DNA of 64,000 nt, from positions 124,001 to 188,000 of the forward strand of contig NZ_JACJOU010000021.1 in NCBI RefSeq assembly GCF_014695725.1. Reading direction: 5' to 3'. The DNA is from Microcoleus sp. FACHB-672. GTDB lineage: Bacteria; Cyanobacteriota; Cyanobacteriia; Cyanobacteriales; Oscillatoriaceae. How positions within the stretch are numbered: position 1 is the first letter of the stretch; the number at the start of each line of letters is the position of its first letter. This document shows, in pieces, positions 6,957 through 15,924 of the stretch. A program made the translations under genes and the position numbers. The notes under the pieces are model-generated. The model worked only from the letters and a program-made list of their open reading frames with translations. It searched no databases and was not told where the DNA came from.

Positions 6957-7076
6957 TAACTTGCCGAAAGAAAATGCGCGATCTTCACCTGAAACACCAA
7001 TGTGTCTTGTCTTCTTCAAACACTCGCTAGAATTGATTTAGATACGTGGGGTGATCAGCACAGGGTAAGGAGCTTT

Positions 7077-8486
7077 ATGAGTGTGATTACTTGCAGCAAC
7101 GGCCATCAAAATCCGGCTACGTCACGTTTTTGCGAAAACTGCGGTGAATCTTTGCAGGGACAGAATGCCGGCATAGCAAGCGCTGGAGATTTAATGCCGG
7201 GAATGCGGTTGCGGGACAGGTACTTGATAAAAAATCCTATCGGTCAAGGGGGATTTGGTAAAACTTATTTAGCCGAAGATACGGGGCGTTTTAATGAACC
7301 TGTTGTGCTTAAAGAACTTACGCCTTCTTTGCAAGGAACGTATGCTGTTCAGAAAGCAGAGGAACTATTTCAGCGGGAAGCAGCAATGCTGCACAAACTT
7401 CAGCATCCCCAAATTCCTCGTTTTTGGGAATTTTTTCGTGAGGGAAAACGGCTGTTTTTAGTGCAAGATTTTATTGAAGGAGAAACTTATCAATCGCTGT
7501 TGGATAACCGGCAACAGCGAGGTCAAGGTTTTACCGAAGCAGAAATTGTTGAATTATTACAGCAATTGCTGCCGGTTTTAAGTTATTTACACCGGCAGGG
7601 AATTATTCACCGAGATATTGCCCCAGATAATATTATTCGCCGCGAACGAGATGGGATGCCGGTGTTAATTGATTTAGGCGGTGTTAAGCAAATTGCCAAT
7701 GAGGTTGCCGGTTCACAAGCTTCTGCGAGTGCGACACGTTTGGGTAAAATTGGTTACGCCCCAGATGAGCAAATGCAAGCCGGTATTGTTGCACCTCACA
7801 GTGATTTGTATGCTTTAGCTATGACTGCAATTGTATTAATGACCGGCAAACAGCCGCAAGACTTGATCGATTCCCATACAATGAATTGGATTTGGGAGAA
7901 GCACCTAAAAACAATCAGCCCTCAACTGAAGGGGATTCTGAAACGAATGTTAGCTTCTCAGCCGGTTGATCGGTTTCAATATGCGGAAGAAATCCAGCAA
8001 TTACTGAATAATTATTTTAATTTGCCGGCAACTCAAGTCACCCAATCTGTTGCGCCAAACCGTCTACCTACTCATCCGCCTAATTCTAAGCCGGTTGTGT
8101 CTAATAATTCTGGGCAAGGTGGGCTATTTGACAATTCTATAGAAGTGCCACAGGAAATTCTCGGCTGGAACTGGGGGGCTTTTTTGCTGCCAGGTTTCTG
8201 GTTTATTACCAATCAAGTTTGGATTGGTGCATTAGCTTGGCTAGATGTCTCAATTATTACCTTCGGTTTAGCTTTGCCAACAATGGCAATTATTTTAGGA
8301 TTGAAAGGCAATGAATGGGCATGGAAAAGCCGCCGGTGGCATAGTATTGCTGTTTTTAAAGCCCATCAAAGAGCTTGGGCAATTGCCGGCTTTATTTTCT
8401 GGGTAATTATGTTATTGATCCTTTTGGTGGTGATTGTCTGTCTTGTTTTAGGCATTGGATTCGCTGCTTTCAATTGGAAGGGTTAG
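7077..8486 (+). CDS. Serine/threonine protein kinase with N-terminal zinc ribbon and C-terminal membrane region
   Basis: A 469-residue protein counted from the ATG at 7077, chosen because AAGGAG lies just upstream and the zinc ribbon begins at once; an in-frame GTG at 7002 would add 25 unlikely residues. Residues 6-22 form a zinc ribbon (C6, C19, C22 and probably H10). The kinase domain has the glycine loop GQGGFG (56-61), Lys79, HRD (178-180) and DLG in place of DFG (199-201). The catalytic loop reads HRDIAPDN, so the usual Lys after HRD is Ala. The C-terminal part contains two or three hydrophobic segments, placing the protein in the membrane. The FHA-domain genes nearby on the other strand are candidate phosphoprotein readers. 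Confidence 0.88.
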   Translation: MSVITCSNGHQNPATSRFCENCGESLQGQNAGIASAGDLMPGMRLRDRYLIKNPIGQGGFGKTYLAEDTGRFNEPVVLKELTPSLQGTYAVQKAEELFQREAAMLHKLQHPQIPRFWEFFREGKRLFLVQDFIEGETYQSLLDNRQQRGQGFTEAEIVELLQQLLPVLSYLHRQGIIHRDIAPDNIIRRERDGMPVLIDLGGVKQIANEVAGSQASASATRLGKIGYAPDEQMQAGIVAPHSDLYALAMTAIVLMTGKQPQDLIDSHTMNWIWEKHLKTISPQLKGILKRMLASQPVDRFQYAEEIQQLLNNYFNLPATQVTQSVAPNRLPTHPPNSKPVVSNNSGQGGLFDNSIEVPQEILGWNWGAFLLPGFWFITNQVWIGALAWLDVSIITFGLALPTMAIILGLKGNEWAWKSRRWHSIAVFKAHQRAWAIAGFIFWVIMLLILLVVIVCLVLGIGFAAFNWKG

Positions 8487-8736: not shown

Positions 8737-9165
8737 TTACAACCACTGACCGCCTTTAAAACGCGAACGCACAAACAAAATCCGCATTAAGGATTGAGAA
8801 GCGATATAAATTCCTAACCACACAAGGCTATAATGAAGTACAAATAAAGGTAATTCAAATTGCCCTTTTGGCACACCGGGCAGACCAATTGCTATTGCTA
8901 AAATCGCTACAAAAATCCCTTCCCAAATGCCTGCGAGCAGTTGAAACACTCCGGGCCAGTCGTAATCCCAGCGAAATTTTTGTAGGTAGTTATAAAGGAC
9001 ATCCCAACCGTGGCCAAAAAATGCCAAATATCCCAGTATCCAAAAATAAATTGTGCCCGGTTTATTGCCAATCATGCCCAGAAAAAAGGGAAGAGTTAGC
9101 AACACGCCTACGGTAGCGAAGAGTAATAACCGGCTTTGCCACCGGCCTAGTAAAGTTGGAGTCAT
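8737..9165 (-). CDS. Four-helix membrane protein, last gene of the FHA operon
   Basis: A 142-residue integral membrane protein with four hydrophobic helices (about residues 12-30, 38-58, 74-98 and 106-130). The pattern FFGHGWDVLYNYLQ and its position suggest a family specific to cyanobacteria or FHA clusters, but I do not recognise a named domain. It begins 32 bases after the FHA-flavoprotein stop, so the two are very likely co-transcribed. A partner or anchor role for the flavoprotein is inference only. Confidence 0.7.
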   Translation of the reverse strand: MTPTLLGRWQSRLLLFATVGVLLTLPFFLGMIGNKPGTIYFWILGYLAFFGHGWDVLYNYLQKFRWDYDWPGVFQLLAGIWEGIFVAILAIAIGLPGVPKGQFELPLFVLHYSLVWLGIYIASQSLMRILFVRSRFKGGQWL

Positions 9166-9197
9166 GTTGATTTAAGTTTGAGAGAGAAGTTTTTTGA

Positions 9198-11162
9198 TTA
9201 AGGCGATTGATTTGCCACCCATTTTAACCACTGCCTTAAAGAAGTGAGAACATTGAGCCGGCTGATTCCAATCGCACGCGCTGCCGCTAAACTATCAACC
9301 GTGCGAAGTGCCGCATATTGTAAGCCTAAAAAGCTATCAACCGGCGCATAAGGGCCGCCCAATGTAATCGCACCGGCGGCGTACATTCGACCCCGATCTG
9401 CCCGCATTTCCACCAATTCAAAATCATTGGCAACACTCATGCGTCCCAAATGATTGAGTGGGAGATTGTAACAGTTAACCAAGTCATTTAGTAAAGGATT
9501 TGCTGTTACATGGGCATCAAGGCCGGTGGCATCAATAATAAAGTTAGCCTCTAGTTTTACTTGTCCCTTAAATCCTTTCTCCTGAATATAAGTAATAATG
9601 CCATCCTGTTCACGTTCAACGCGTTCAACTTCACCAAACGCAATCTGATACCAGCCCTGATTTAACCCTTCTTGAACAATGCGTTTCCAATCGCCGCGAT
9701 CTGCCGTTGTGCTGCCGCCCCAGTCTGCTAGTAAACGCTTTCGCTGTTCTGGAGTTGCCTGTTCTAGTATTGCCCGCATTTCTCCACCCCAACCGGCTTT
9801 CGGCCAGTTAAATGGTTGAAATTCATAGTGATTGGCAACTTGACGCTGAGCACTGCCAAATTTGTTACCTTGAGGCTTAGGAGATCGCATCAAATGTAAC
9901 AGGGAAATATTCGGATTTCGCTGCCGCGCTTCATAAATTCGCTGCACAATTCGAGAGGCTACAATACCTCGTCCACGAATTAATACAGTGCCACCTTTTT
10001 GCTCTAAATATTCATAAACGTGCTTATGATCTTCATAGGCATTCACGACTGATTTAAAATCGCCAGTTTTTTCGCGGTAATCTTGCAAATCGGGGAGAAA
10101 TTGAATCGCCGGATAGCCGGTGGCGATTTGCACATATTTGGTTAGCAGAAACGCCCGATCTCGCCGGCTGGCATCTCCCCGCGAATAAGCGATGGCATAG
10201 CGTCCATCATCGGTTTTGCGAATTGCCCGAATGCGCCCGTAGCGAAAGATGCCATCCCAACCAATCCGCGTGGCTTCTCGATCAATGGAATTAAATACAT
10301 TGCCGGCGCGAGGTGTGTAAGTTTCAGCAAAGGTTGGTTCTGCAAAGACTTGCCACAAATATTTAAAAGATGCCCCAATTTGCCCTTTAAAAAAGTCGCC
10401 CCAAGCTTCGCGCAAGGCATAACTCGGCCAACCCCATATATTATCGGGACAGGAATCTGAATTGGAACGCAACCGTTCGTGTAAAGGAATTTGGGAATTG
10501 AGGCAAAGCCGGCGATAACGGGCGTAAGGTTCTTTCTCCATGCCTAAAGCAGCTATTTGCCCAGGTTTAACCCCAAAAATCCGCAACAAATCAACCCAGA
10601 TAAAACTACCCAAGCCGGCACCAATCGCCGCATAATCGATTTCATCCACCGGCAACCCTGTTGCGTGCAAATCTTGCACCGGCACGATTTGAGAATCTAC
10701 AAATGCTTGGGGTGGAAAGCCGCTAGCAATCACCGGCGGCTGTGGTGGTTGGGTCGGATCAGGCAGATCCGTATGGGGATTAAATAAAATTGGCGAATTA
10801 CTTGCCTGTGTTGGGGCAGCGGCAGAACCGGCAAAGGAGACATTAATCTGGTAAGGGCCAACTTGCAGCGTATCGCCATTCGCCAAGGCGCAGCGCTTTT
10901 GAAGCGTCCCGTTGACAAACGTTCCATTACGGCTACCTTGATCAACAACGACTAACCCTCCCGACTCCATATCAATTAAGGCATGGAAGCGAGAAACTTG
11001 ATCGCTATTAAGCACCAAACGGGAAATGCGAGTGCCGGCAATTTCCCCAGGCATTTGAGAAAATTCTCGTCCTAGGGCAATAGGCAAACCTAGCACTGGT
11101 TCCCGCCGTTCCCCAGTCGCCGGATCGTCCCATCTTAATCGTATTTGTATAGGTGTTACCAT
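9198..11162 (-). CDS. FHA domain fused to FAD/NAD(P)-binding oxidoreductase
   Basis: A 654-residue fusion. Residues 24-108 are a forkhead-associated (phosphothreonine-binding) domain with GREFS, the VSRFHA core and SRNGTFVNG. A Pro-rich linker (about 115-165) leads to a flavoprotein part with a Rossmann motif GAGLGSF (181-187), the ATGYPA motif (347-352), a second dinucleotide site GRGIVAS (397-403), and IDATGL (543-548). The order FAD site, ATG motif, NAD(P) site resembles N-hydroxylating or lysine/ornithine monooxygenase-like flavoproteins, but the substrate is unknown. The FHA domain should recruit it to a phosphorylated partner, possibly through the nearby kinase. It is the middle gene of a tight minus-strand set. 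Confidence 0.83.
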   Translation of the reverse strand: MVTPIQIRLRWDDPATGERREPVLGLPIALGREFSQMPGEIAGTRISRLVLNSDQVSRFHALIDMESGGLVVVDQGSRNGTFVNGTLQKRCALANGDTLQVGPYQINVSFAGSAAAPTQASNSPILFNPHTDLPDPTQPPQPPVIASGFPPQAFVDSQIVPVQDLHATGLPVDEIDYAAIGAGLGSFIWVDLLRIFGVKPGQIAALGMEKEPYARYRRLCLNSQIPLHERLRSNSDSCPDNIWGWPSYALREAWGDFFKGQIGASFKYLWQVFAEPTFAETYTPRAGNVFNSIDREATRIGWDGIFRYGRIRAIRKTDDGRYAIAYSRGDASRRDRAFLLTKYVQIATGYPAIQFLPDLQDYREKTGDFKSVVNAYEDHKHVYEYLEQKGGTVLIRGRGIVASRIVQRIYEARQRNPNISLLHLMRSPKPQGNKFGSAQRQVANHYEFQPFNWPKAGWGGEMRAILEQATPEQRKRLLADWGGSTTADRGDWKRIVQEGLNQGWYQIAFGEVERVEREQDGIITYIQEKGFKGQVKLEANFIIDATGLDAHVTANPLLNDLVNCYNLPLNHLGRMSVANDFELVEMRADRGRMYAAGAITLGGPYAPVDSFLGLQYAALRTVDSLAAARAIGISRLNVLTSLRQWLKWVANQSP

Positions 11163-11206
11163 CTTAGGATTTTAGATATTAGATGTTTTGGGAATGGGGC
11201 ATTCCC

Positions 11207-11779
11207 CTAAGTACCAGGAGGCATCACAACACTAACTGCTGCTGCCAGGGAAGTGCCGCACCAAGGACAGCCCAAATCTAGCCGTTCGTAGGGGGAAATG
11301 CGGTTGCAACAGGGACACTCCAAACCGTAATTAGCATTTGGGGGGACAGTTGGGGAAATCGCTGGTTTAACCGGCTTTCCGGGGGAGGGAAATGCTGGAA
11401 TCGCTGCCAGTGGAGATGCGATAACTGTCGGCGCAACCCCGGAAGTTGCCACAGATACTGCAACAACATTGAGTTCCACTTCTCCTAAGAGAATTCTGCT
11501 GTCTGGGTGGAGAGGTAGTTCTCCCACACTCAGGCGGTGTCCATCAACAGCAGGTGGATTTGTATCGCGAAGGTTCCGCAATGAAAAGTTATTCTGCTGC
11601 CGGTTAAAAAAGATTTCGATGTGCAGCCCTGATACGGTTGGATGCGTCAATACGATATCACACCGGCTCGGATCTCGACCGATGCGGACGGTTCCCGGAT
11701 GTTTGCTGGGTTGTTGGTCTTGGATGGTTTGGGATCTGGGCTGACCGGCTTCTGACCACTCTAAAATTAGTTGATTCAT
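11207..11779 (-). CDS. FHA domain protein with C-terminal zinc ribbon
   Basis: A 190-residue protein counted from the ATG at 11779, which has a strong GGAGGAG site just upstream; the frame runs 16 codons further upstream but with no ribosome site. The FHA domain covers about residues 28-108 (VRIGRD, SGLHIEIF, and a DTNPPAV region where the usual NG loop is altered). A Pro-rich linker follows, then a zinc ribbon with CPCC and CPWC. It lies 44 bases upstream of the FHA-flavoprotein. The pair suggests a phospho-dependent scaffold. The substituted loop residues may weaken phosphothreonine specificity. Confidence 0.8.
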   Translation of the reverse strand: MNQLILEWSEAGQPRSQTIQDQQPSKHPGTVRIGRDPSRCDIVLTHPTVSGLHIEIFFNRQQNNFSLRNLRDTNPPAVDGHRLSVGELPLHPDSRILLGEVELNVVAVSVATSGVAPTVIASPLAAIPAFPSPGKPVKPAISPTVPPNANYGLECPCCNRISPYERLDLGCPWCGTSLAAAVSVVMPPGT

Positions 11780-11922
11780 CTCTCCTCCGCAGCGCTCTTT
11801 TCTGTTGTAGCATCCCGCTGGAATCAACTATTAATATTATTCAACTTTATAAGCCGGTCTTTAATATCTTGACATTGAGGATTGTTACATCTAATCAGAC
11901 TTGTTTTAAGCTAACGCCCATC

Positions 11923-13245
11923 TCATTCGGATTGTAGCCTTTGAAATCGCACGCGCAAGCCATCTTTAGGCCGGCGCGTGGGAACCTCAACGGTTTCTAA
12001 ACTTTGATCGGGTAACAACTCCCATTGATAGTGTCGTAATAATTGCGCCGCAACGATCTTCATTTCCATCTTGGCAAAGGCGATGCCAATACAAACTCTT
12101 GGCCCACCACCAAACCCGACTAAACTAAAGGGTTGTTTTTTATGTTCTTGCCGGCTGGGACTGAAACGATCTGGGTCAAATCGGTTGGGTTCGGGGTAAA
12201 TTTCTGGCAGCTTGTGAGTCATTTTGATCGAGTACAGTGCCAGCCACCCAGCCGGCACATAATAACCATTAAACTCAAACGGTTTCACCACGCCGCGAAA
12301 CCCACCTCCAACCGGCGGATGCAAGCGTTCCACCTCCAGCAGAATTTGCTCTAAATAGGGCATTTGCCCCAATTGTTCTAAATTTAGCGGCCCTTTTTCT
12401 GCTAGGGTTTGCTGTTCTGTTCTGGCGCGTTCTAATATTTCAGGATGCCGGCCTAACTCCAGACACATCCAAGTCAGCATCGACGTGGTGGTTTCATGGC
12501 CGGCAAACAGCATCAGCATTGCTTGGGCGGTGAGTTCTTTGAGGCTGAGGCTGTTGCCTTCCTCATCACGAGCTTGTAATAACAAGCTAAGTACATCGTT
12601 CTTTGGGTTTTGCTGGCGTTGCCGCACAACCCCGCTGATATGTTGCAATAGCTGGTTTCGGGCGGCAACCGATTTACCAAACTGCGTCACCGGCAAGCGC
12701 ACCGGAAATAGGGAAAATAAACCCATTGTCAGGGTAGAAAATAGCTGGCTGAGTCTAGCGACTTCAGGGCCGGCACTTGCACCCAGCAGCAACTCACTGG
12801 CAATGTCAAAGGTTAGCTGTTTAAATTCTTCAAACCAGCGGAACTCTTCTTGCTGTTCCCATTGCTGAAGATAGCGCTGCGTAATAGATTCCATTGTGGC
12901 GAGATAGCTAGTCAGCGCTGGGCCATGTAATGCCGGCATCATCAGCCGCCGGTTGCGCCGGTGTTCTTCGCCATCTTGAACAAACAGCGACTCTCCCAAC
13001 AAAATTTTAAATGTTTCAGGCCAACCCTCTCGCCAGGAAAAATGCTCGGCATGACTGGCTAAGAGAAATTCATTCGCTTCTGGGCCAATCATAAATACAG
13101 CCGGTTTGCCTAACAACCGAGTTTTAAAAATTGGCCCATACTGGGCGTAGCGATTCTTAAGATAATCCCGGTCAAAAAGAAATTGCAGAGTTTGACCGAT
13201 TCCAGGCAAACCCATCTTGCCCGGAGGAAGCCGATTGCGGTGCAT
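11923..13245 (-). CDS. Cytochrome P450, CYP120-like
   Basis: A 440-residue P450. It has the I-helix oxygen-activation motif AGHETTTS, the ExxR pair in LLEVERLHPPVGG, and the heme loop FGGGPRVCIG with the Cys thiolate ligand. The N-terminus is LPPGKMGLPGIG, a proline-rich hinge with no membrane anchor, which is normal for cyanobacterial CYP120 enzymes. CYP120A1 of Synechocystis hydroxylates retinoids; a similar isoprenoid or apocarotenoid substrate is plausible but not shown. The gene ends 143 bases upstream of the FHA-zinc ribbon gene on the same strand and may share its transcript. Confidence 0.9.
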   Translation of the reverse strand: MHRNRLPPGKMGLPGIGQTLQFLFDRDYLKNRYAQYGPIFKTRLLGKPAVFMIGPEANEFLLASHAEHFSWREGWPETFKILLGESLFVQDGEEHRRNRRLMMPALHGPALTSYLATMESITQRYLQQWEQQEEFRWFEEFKQLTFDIASELLLGASAGPEVARLSQLFSTLTMGLFSLFPVRLPVTQFGKSVAARNQLLQHISGVVRQRQQNPKNDVLSLLLQARDEEGNSLSLKELTAQAMLMLFAGHETTTSMLTWMCLELGRHPEILERARTEQQTLAEKGPLNLEQLGQMPYLEQILLEVERLHPPVGGGFRGVVKPFEFNGYYVPAGWLALYSIKMTHKLPEIYPEPNRFDPDRFSPSRQEHKKQPFSLVGFGGGPRVCIGIAFAKMEMKIVAAQLLRHYQWELLPDQSLETVEVPTRRPKDGLRVRFQRLQSE

Positions 13246-15264: not shown

Positions 15265-15924
15265 ATGAAGATTGACAGGACTCATGCTTGGCCTCAGACG
15301 ACTCAGGAGGCTATCGCAATTCAACAGCAACTGCGATCTCAGGTGATTGCAGAAGATCGACTGGGGGAGGTGCGCTATGTTGGCGGTGTGGATGTGGGTT
15401 ATGATCTCGCCAACTCGATAACGCGGGCGGCTGTGGTGGTTTTGAGTTTTCCAGACTTGCAATTGCACTCCTCAGCCATTGCTTTGCAACCGACAACTTT
15501 TCCTTACATTCCAGGGTTTCTTTCGTTTCGGGAAGTGCCGGCAATTTTGGATGCGTTAGAAATGCTGACGGTTGCGCCTGACTTGTTGCTGTGTGATGGG
15601 CAAGGATTAGCCCATCCCCGTCGCTTTGGTTTGGCTTGTCATTTGGGCGTTTTGGCAAATATCCCGGCAATTGGAGTTGCAAAGACGCGGTTTATTGGAG
15701 AACATGATCCGGTGCCGGCGGATCGGGGCAGTTGGCAACCGTTGCGACATCAGGGTGAAGTGATTGGGGCTGTGCTGACAACTCGTGCCGGTGCTAAGCC
15801 GATCTATGTCTCAACCGGCCATCAGATTTCCTTGGCAAGTGCAATTGATTATGTGTTGCGCTGCACCCCCAAGTACCGGCTCCCAGAGACAACTCGTTTG
15901 GCAGATCGGCTGGCATCGGGATAA
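15265..15924 (+). CDS. nfi: Endonuclease V (deoxyinosine 3'-endonuclease)
   Basis: A 219-residue DNA repair enzyme that cuts near deoxyinosine formed by adenine deamination. Family signatures are GGVDVGYD with catalytic Asp43, PYIPGFLSFREVP with the catalytic Glu, and LLCDGQGLAHPRRFG with a further acidic metal ligand and the strand-separating region, followed by IGVAKTRF. Length is normal. The ATG at 15265 gives the expected short N-terminal leader before the catalytic core. It stands alone; no other repair gene is adjacent. Confidence 0.93.
   Translation: MKIDRTHAWPQTTQEAIAIQQQLRSQVIAEDRLGEVRYVGGVDVGYDLANSITRAAVVVLSFPDLQLHSSAIALQPTTFPYIPGFLSFREVPAILDALEMLTVAPDLLLCDGQGLAHPRRFGLACHLGVLANIPAIGVAKTRFIGEHDPVPADRGSWQPLRHQGEVIGAVLTTRAGAKPIYVSTGHQISLASAIDYVLRCTPKYRLPETTRLADRLASG

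Follow-up and report, generated by a model that had tools for sequence, protein, structure and literature searches.

Locus and gene calls

The window, a stretch of 64,000 nucleotides from Microcoleus sp. FACHB-672, carries three closely spaced minus-strand genes that encode an FHA-zinc ribbon protein (FHA-ZnR), a protein in which an FHA domain is joined to a flavoprotein domain, and a small membrane protein (Table 1). The gaps between these genes are 32 and 44 bases. A Ser/Thr kinase gene is convergent with the three-gene operon, and a cytochrome P450 gene is situated 143 bases upstream of it on the same strand. The open reading frames, strands and gaps given in a first-pass annotation were all reproduced. 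Pfam bears out its FHA domains, at 2.1e-13 and 5.8e-13 for the two larger products, and structure prediction agrees with the two-Rossmann flavoprotein and the four-helix membrane protein that it had proposed.

Table 1. Coordinates of the three-gene operon, its neighbours and their sequence features in the window
Feature	Position	Strand	Basis
Ser/Thr kinase; zinc-ribbon-like motif at the N-terminal end, hydrophobic stretches at the C-terminal end	7002..8486	+	PF00069, 8.5e-35
Four-helix membrane protein, 142 aa	8737..9165	-	near-obligate partner of the flavoprotein
Near-invariant predicted cytosolic N-terminus of the membrane protein, MTPTLLGRWQSR	9130..9165	-	conservation and positive-inside pattern
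FHA-flavoprotein, 654 aa	9198..11162	-	open reading frame and Pfam FHA
Two-dinucleotide flavoprotein domain, ~residues 170-637	9252..10655	-	motif GxGxGS, a second Rossmann motif GxGIxA, ATG motif twice, VDSFLGLQ at the C-terminus
FHA domain of the flavoprotein, ~residues 28-110	10833..11081	-	Pfam and conserved phosphothreonine-binding residues
FHA-ZnR, 190 aa	11207..11779	-	open reading frame and Pfam FHA
Zinc ribbon of FHA-ZnR, CPCC...CPWC	11255..11317	-	alignment
Cytochrome P450, lineage-specific neighbour	11923..13245	-	PF00067, 1e-81

The start of FHA-ZnR is placed at the ATG at 11779, which is preceded by a clear ribosome-binding site, GGAGGAGAG; the open frame begins earlier, with a TTG at 11827. 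The kinase open frame, taken from the GTG at 7002, is probably too long, and related kinases begin 75 bases further in (~7077), at MSVITCSNGHQ. Promoter and terminator scans gave matches at about the level of shuffled sequence.

FHA domains

FHA domains bind phosphothreonine. Both domains of the operon score above the curated cut-off of PF00498 and display the Gly-Arg, Ser-x-x-His and Asn residues. In the flavoprotein, G31, R32, R58, H60 and N84 are found in 115/115 homologues and S57 in 113/115; in FHA-ZnR, the alignment has G50, R51, S66, H69 and N90 invariant (numbering of the 206-residue frame). With these residues in place, both domains are likely to be competent phosphothreonine readers. 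The best PDB sequence matches are the FHA domains of GarA and OdhI. The zinc ribbon of FHA-ZnR is partly lost in three divergent members.

The flavoprotein domain

The predicted structure of the flavoprotein has a mean pLDDT of 79 and a pTM of 0.70, and residues 170-637 are modelled well apart from poorly predicted loops. Foldseek places the ornithine and lysine N-hydroxylases SidA, PvdA, KtzI and relatives as the best matches (SidA, E 1.2e-15 and TM 0.65; PvdA, TM 0.71; TM by target length). A second structure aligner, VIA, gives PvdA a Z of about 22, over at least 380 residues, and YpdA, PvdA and flavin monooxygenases all fall within about two Z units. The model thus points to the two-dinucleotide NAD(P)H flavoprotein class and singles out no one reaction; equally high scores are reached by further members of this class.

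No sequence method ties the domain to any named family. Pfam has no match in the flavoprotein outside the FHA domain; the flavoprotein domain itself is matched by sequence neither in Pfam nor in NCBIfam nor in the PDB, and a profile search of the PDB gave nothing meaningful. Membership of PF13434, Pyr_redox, Trp_halogenase or LodB was rejected, as matches were sub-threshold only. For PF13434, the window protein has no match and two of 29 members match at E 0.23 or worse, while hhalign against a cyanobacterial NMO returns a probability of 0.3%. The likeness to lysine/ornithine N-monooxygenases that the first-pass annotation had suspected thus holds for the fold, including an FAD Rossmann motif followed by one for NADPH over ~residues 170-637, but not for the sequence. 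The protein further differs from SidA, PvdA and KtzI in its FAD motif, its FHA fusion and its membrane partner. A match to a well-characterised housekeeping enzyme, named beforehand as grounds for setting the redox reading aside, did not emerge; the flavoprotein is no recognisable housekeeping enzyme.

The motifs GxGxGS, RGxGIxA, GY and D-x-TG show essentially no variation among 115 homologues. An arginine that follows the second Rossmann strand, Arg426, is kept in 113/115 and suggests that NADPH is the reductant used. The bacillithiol disulfide reductase YpdA/Bdr and thioredoxin-reductase-like flavoproteins share this two-dinucleotide fold (Z 23.9 and rmsd 2.9 over 314 aligned residues). A role as thioredoxin or disulfide reductase is nevertheless disfavoured, because a CxxC motif was sought in the window flavoprotein and is absent, and because its only conserved cysteine, Cys238, kept in 114/115 cyanobacterial homologues, is Arg in the homologue of the actinomycete Nonomuraea gerenzanensis.

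This Nonomuraea homologue (L177 14941-16458) is a stand-alone flavoprotein domain of 505 residues without FHA, with 36% identity over 490 residues. An alignment of all 108 sequences, the Nonomuraea protein included, has 69 invariant residues. Inspection of its neighbourhood by eye revealed no recognisable membrane partner and no clue to a substrate.

The membrane protein

The membrane protein matches no known Pfam or other family, and a Foldseek search with its model returned nothing significant (best E 2.7). The model places helices, at moderate confidence (pLDDT 75), at residues 5-28, 39-62, 70-92 and 105-130, and the positive-inside charge distribution puts both ends in the cytosol by prediction. 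The most conserved stretch is residues 1-12, MTPTLxGRWQ[TS]R, with a mean conservation of 0.95 vs 0.69 elsewhere; Thr2 is present in 72/72 sequences and Thr4 in 71/72. In this MTPTL N-terminus we infer a candidate phosphothreonine docking site. Two invariant acidic residues, D55 and E82, are located inside predicted helices and suggest that the protein is more than an anchor.

Gene order across cyanobacteria

A search of 60 relatives of the window's genome yielded 28 full-length FHA-flavoprotein orthologues outside that genome, at 45-97% identity. The order FHA-ZnR, FHA-flavoprotein, membrane protein is kept in most of these 28 genomes, and in several the flavoprotein and membrane protein genes overlap. 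Loss of gene order in other genomes, which the first-pass annotation had taken as decisive against its reading, is therefore not what is seen. A wider scan of species genomes turned up 372 relatives, and the 80 retained are all cyanobacterial. FHA-ZnR is the same-strand upstream neighbour of the flavoprotein in 104/108 loci. The membrane protein gene is near the flavoprotein in 57/108 loci, 56 of them on the same strand. The three genes also stand in this sequence in G214 (L156), which belongs to a different order of the class. This arrangement is far beyond chance and recurs in dozens of genera. Counting against a single module, many Nostocales have the membrane protein gene 1-3 kb off or elsewhere.

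The gene for the repair enzyme endonuclease V (EndoV) is a neighbour in 85/108 flavoprotein loci and in most related loci is found upstream of FHA-ZnR on the same strand; in the window, it is at 15265-15924, on the opposite strand and 3.5 kb away. This adjacency is probably ancestral synteny.

Several loci depart from the common arrangement. In G037 of family f31, a different FHA protein (L066 7497-7925), which resembles the flavoprotein's own FHA domain, takes the place of FHA-ZnR directly upstream of the flavoprotein. G364 has two tandem FHA-ZnR-like genes before the flavoprotein (L165 2121-2900 and 3263-3895), in a genome without the membrane protein. G289, which has the full set elsewhere, carries a second copy (L153 2983-5190) in which a flavoprotein that is ~134 residues short at its C-terminal end continues, without a change of frame, into a membrane protein of full length. 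This 735-residue frame is either a fusion or a decaying paralogue, and a WD40 kinase is encoded 676 bases downstream.

Co-inheritance of the flavoprotein and the membrane protein

Among 149 relatives, 62 carry the flavoprotein, 61 the membrane protein and 61 both. The hypergeometric probability of this overlap is 1.5e-41 (2e-22 at genus level), values that are too small because genomes are treated as independent, uncorrected for phylogeny. A phylum sample of 292 genomes gives 47, 46 and 46, respectively. Neither sample has a genome with the membrane protein and without the flavoprotein, and only G364 and G312 carry the flavoprotein without the membrane protein. Both are present even where the genes are far apart (e.g. 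G027, G053, G347, G116), and copy numbers are equal, two and two, in G211, G289 and G318.

FHA-ZnR is found in 61/149 relatives at E 1e-20, and 54 of these share it with the pair. The flavoprotein and the membrane protein are a core pair from which FHA-ZnR is separable, because the pair occurs without FHA-ZnR in family f31 and in G104, and FHA-ZnR without either member of the pair in several genomes of family f9. In three f9 genomes (G339, G362, G374), FHA-ZnR is within ~1 kb of EndoV and the core pair is absent, which is consistent with its joint loss. As a control gene, EndoV occurs in 102/149 relatives, many of them without the flavoprotein, and is not tied to the pair. In a mirror-tree comparison, the distance correlation of flavoprotein and membrane protein was no better than with this unrelated control.

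Neighbouring kinases and cytochrome P450

The genome of the window has 69 kinase-domain matches, and for that reason a single kinase neighbour means little. Kinases are nevertheless found within 3 kb of the operon in 7/23 genera, vs 0.96 expected from the kinase density of each genome (P 6e-5, or 2.5e-4 without the window's genus, at a 3-kb threshold picked after the data had been seen). Six of the seven are downstream; in G020, for example, a TPR kinase is 515 bases downstream. The nearby kinases are not orthologous, and most flavoprotein carriers have none close by. The kinases look independently recruited, because their accessory domains differ: zinc ribbon with hydrophobic tail, WD40, DUF4189 and TPR, with MORN in Nostoc. 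The association with a kinase drawn from the window alone is thus upheld in part: kinases recur nearby above expectation, but the window's own kinase is not a conserved partner. Similarly, the P450 is indeed upstream on the same strand, but it occurs only in the window's genus and in a second genus from that family. An operon that includes the P450 or the window's kinase was rejected, neither being conserved in related loci, and the P450 does not belong to the module.

A known anti-phage defence system was also considered and rejected, as none of the three module proteins has a PADLOC match. The defence-system kinase models PD-T4-6 and mad6 do match the kinase, as they would any kinase domain.

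Interpretation

The three genes may be read as one module, a phosphothreonine-gated, membrane-docked NADPH-flavoenzyme with a dedicated membrane protein, to which we give about an even chance (roughly 0.5). This reading builds directly on gene order, co-occurrence of the pair, FHA binding residues, dinucleotide motifs and predicted fold. The mechanism that we infer from these, comprising NADPH use, phosphorylation, docking site and substrate class, would be as follows. A flavoenzyme with the fold class of N-hydroxylating monooxygenases and thioredoxin reductase, joined to an FHA reader, would act with the small membrane protein, and FHA-ZnR would serve as adaptor or regulator. A Hanks-type kinase would phosphorylate a threonine on a module partner, the best candidate being the MTPTL N-terminus, and FHA binding would then dock or switch the flavoenzyme at the membrane. 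The substrate may be a membrane-associated small molecule that is oxygenated or reduced. The earlier idea of a path from kinase to redox enzyme is plausible, and the kinase counts lend it statistical support of an indirect kind. Its most specific form, in which a Ser/Thr kinase phosphorylates the MTPTL tail and the FHA domain of the flavoenzyme docks there to give a phospho-gated membrane redox enzyme, would be a new mechanism and is put forward tentatively.

A constitutive membrane flavoenzyme complex, in which the FHA domains hold constitutively phosphorylated or unphosphorylated partners and there is no kinase switch, is less likely than the module reading. The near-perfect co-occurrence of the core pair with no conserved cognate kinase would fit it, as would the FHA-less actinomycete homologue, from which it follows that catalysis need not depend on FHA; the full or nearly full conservation of the phosphothreonine-binding residues, the second FHA protein in the operon and the recurrence of kinases nearby speak against it. 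It is rather unlikely that the flavoprotein is a signal sensor that yields no metabolic product and whose redox state steers the FHA domains and thereby a kinase network: the presence of two FHA proteins in the operon and of kinases close to it could be so explained, but the 69 invariant residues shared with the FHA-less Nonomuraea homologue are what an enzyme would be expected to show. It is quite improbable that the protein is a true N-hydroxylating monooxygenase whose hydroxylated amine goes into a siderophore or secondary metabolite, in a pathway to which the P450 would also belong, since the Foldseek ranking of SidA, PvdA, KtzI and relatives is set against the lack of sequence relation to PF13434 or cyanobacterial NMOs, a P450 that is not conserved and the absence of conserved biosynthetic genes nearby.

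Relation to known systems and significance

The FHA proteins OdhI and GarA, which regulate a metabolic enzyme, exemplify how a Ser/Thr kinase, an FHA domain and a redox enzyme can be linked. The present module differs in that the FHA domain is part of the enzyme's own chain and the co-inherited partner is a membrane protein. Rv1747, an FHA-containing ABC transporter, is described as forming an operon with its own kinase, PknF (PMC3908365); it is a transporter rather than a flavoenzyme. The literature on FHA with flavoprotein, flavin, monooxygenase or FraH yielded no paper on an FHA-flavoprotein. The module is real and conserved, and is apparently undescribed and new in composition.

Two families without Pfam models, the flavoprotein family and the membrane protein family, are added here and are inherited together. 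Cyanobacteria carry tens of Ser/Thr kinases, yet the list of their known targets is, to our knowledge, short. FHA readers go unmentioned in a 2025 review of Ser/Thr phosphorylation in cyanobacteria (PMC11863333). The module represents a defined, conserved reader set with a likely enzymatic output and a directly testable candidate phosphosite.
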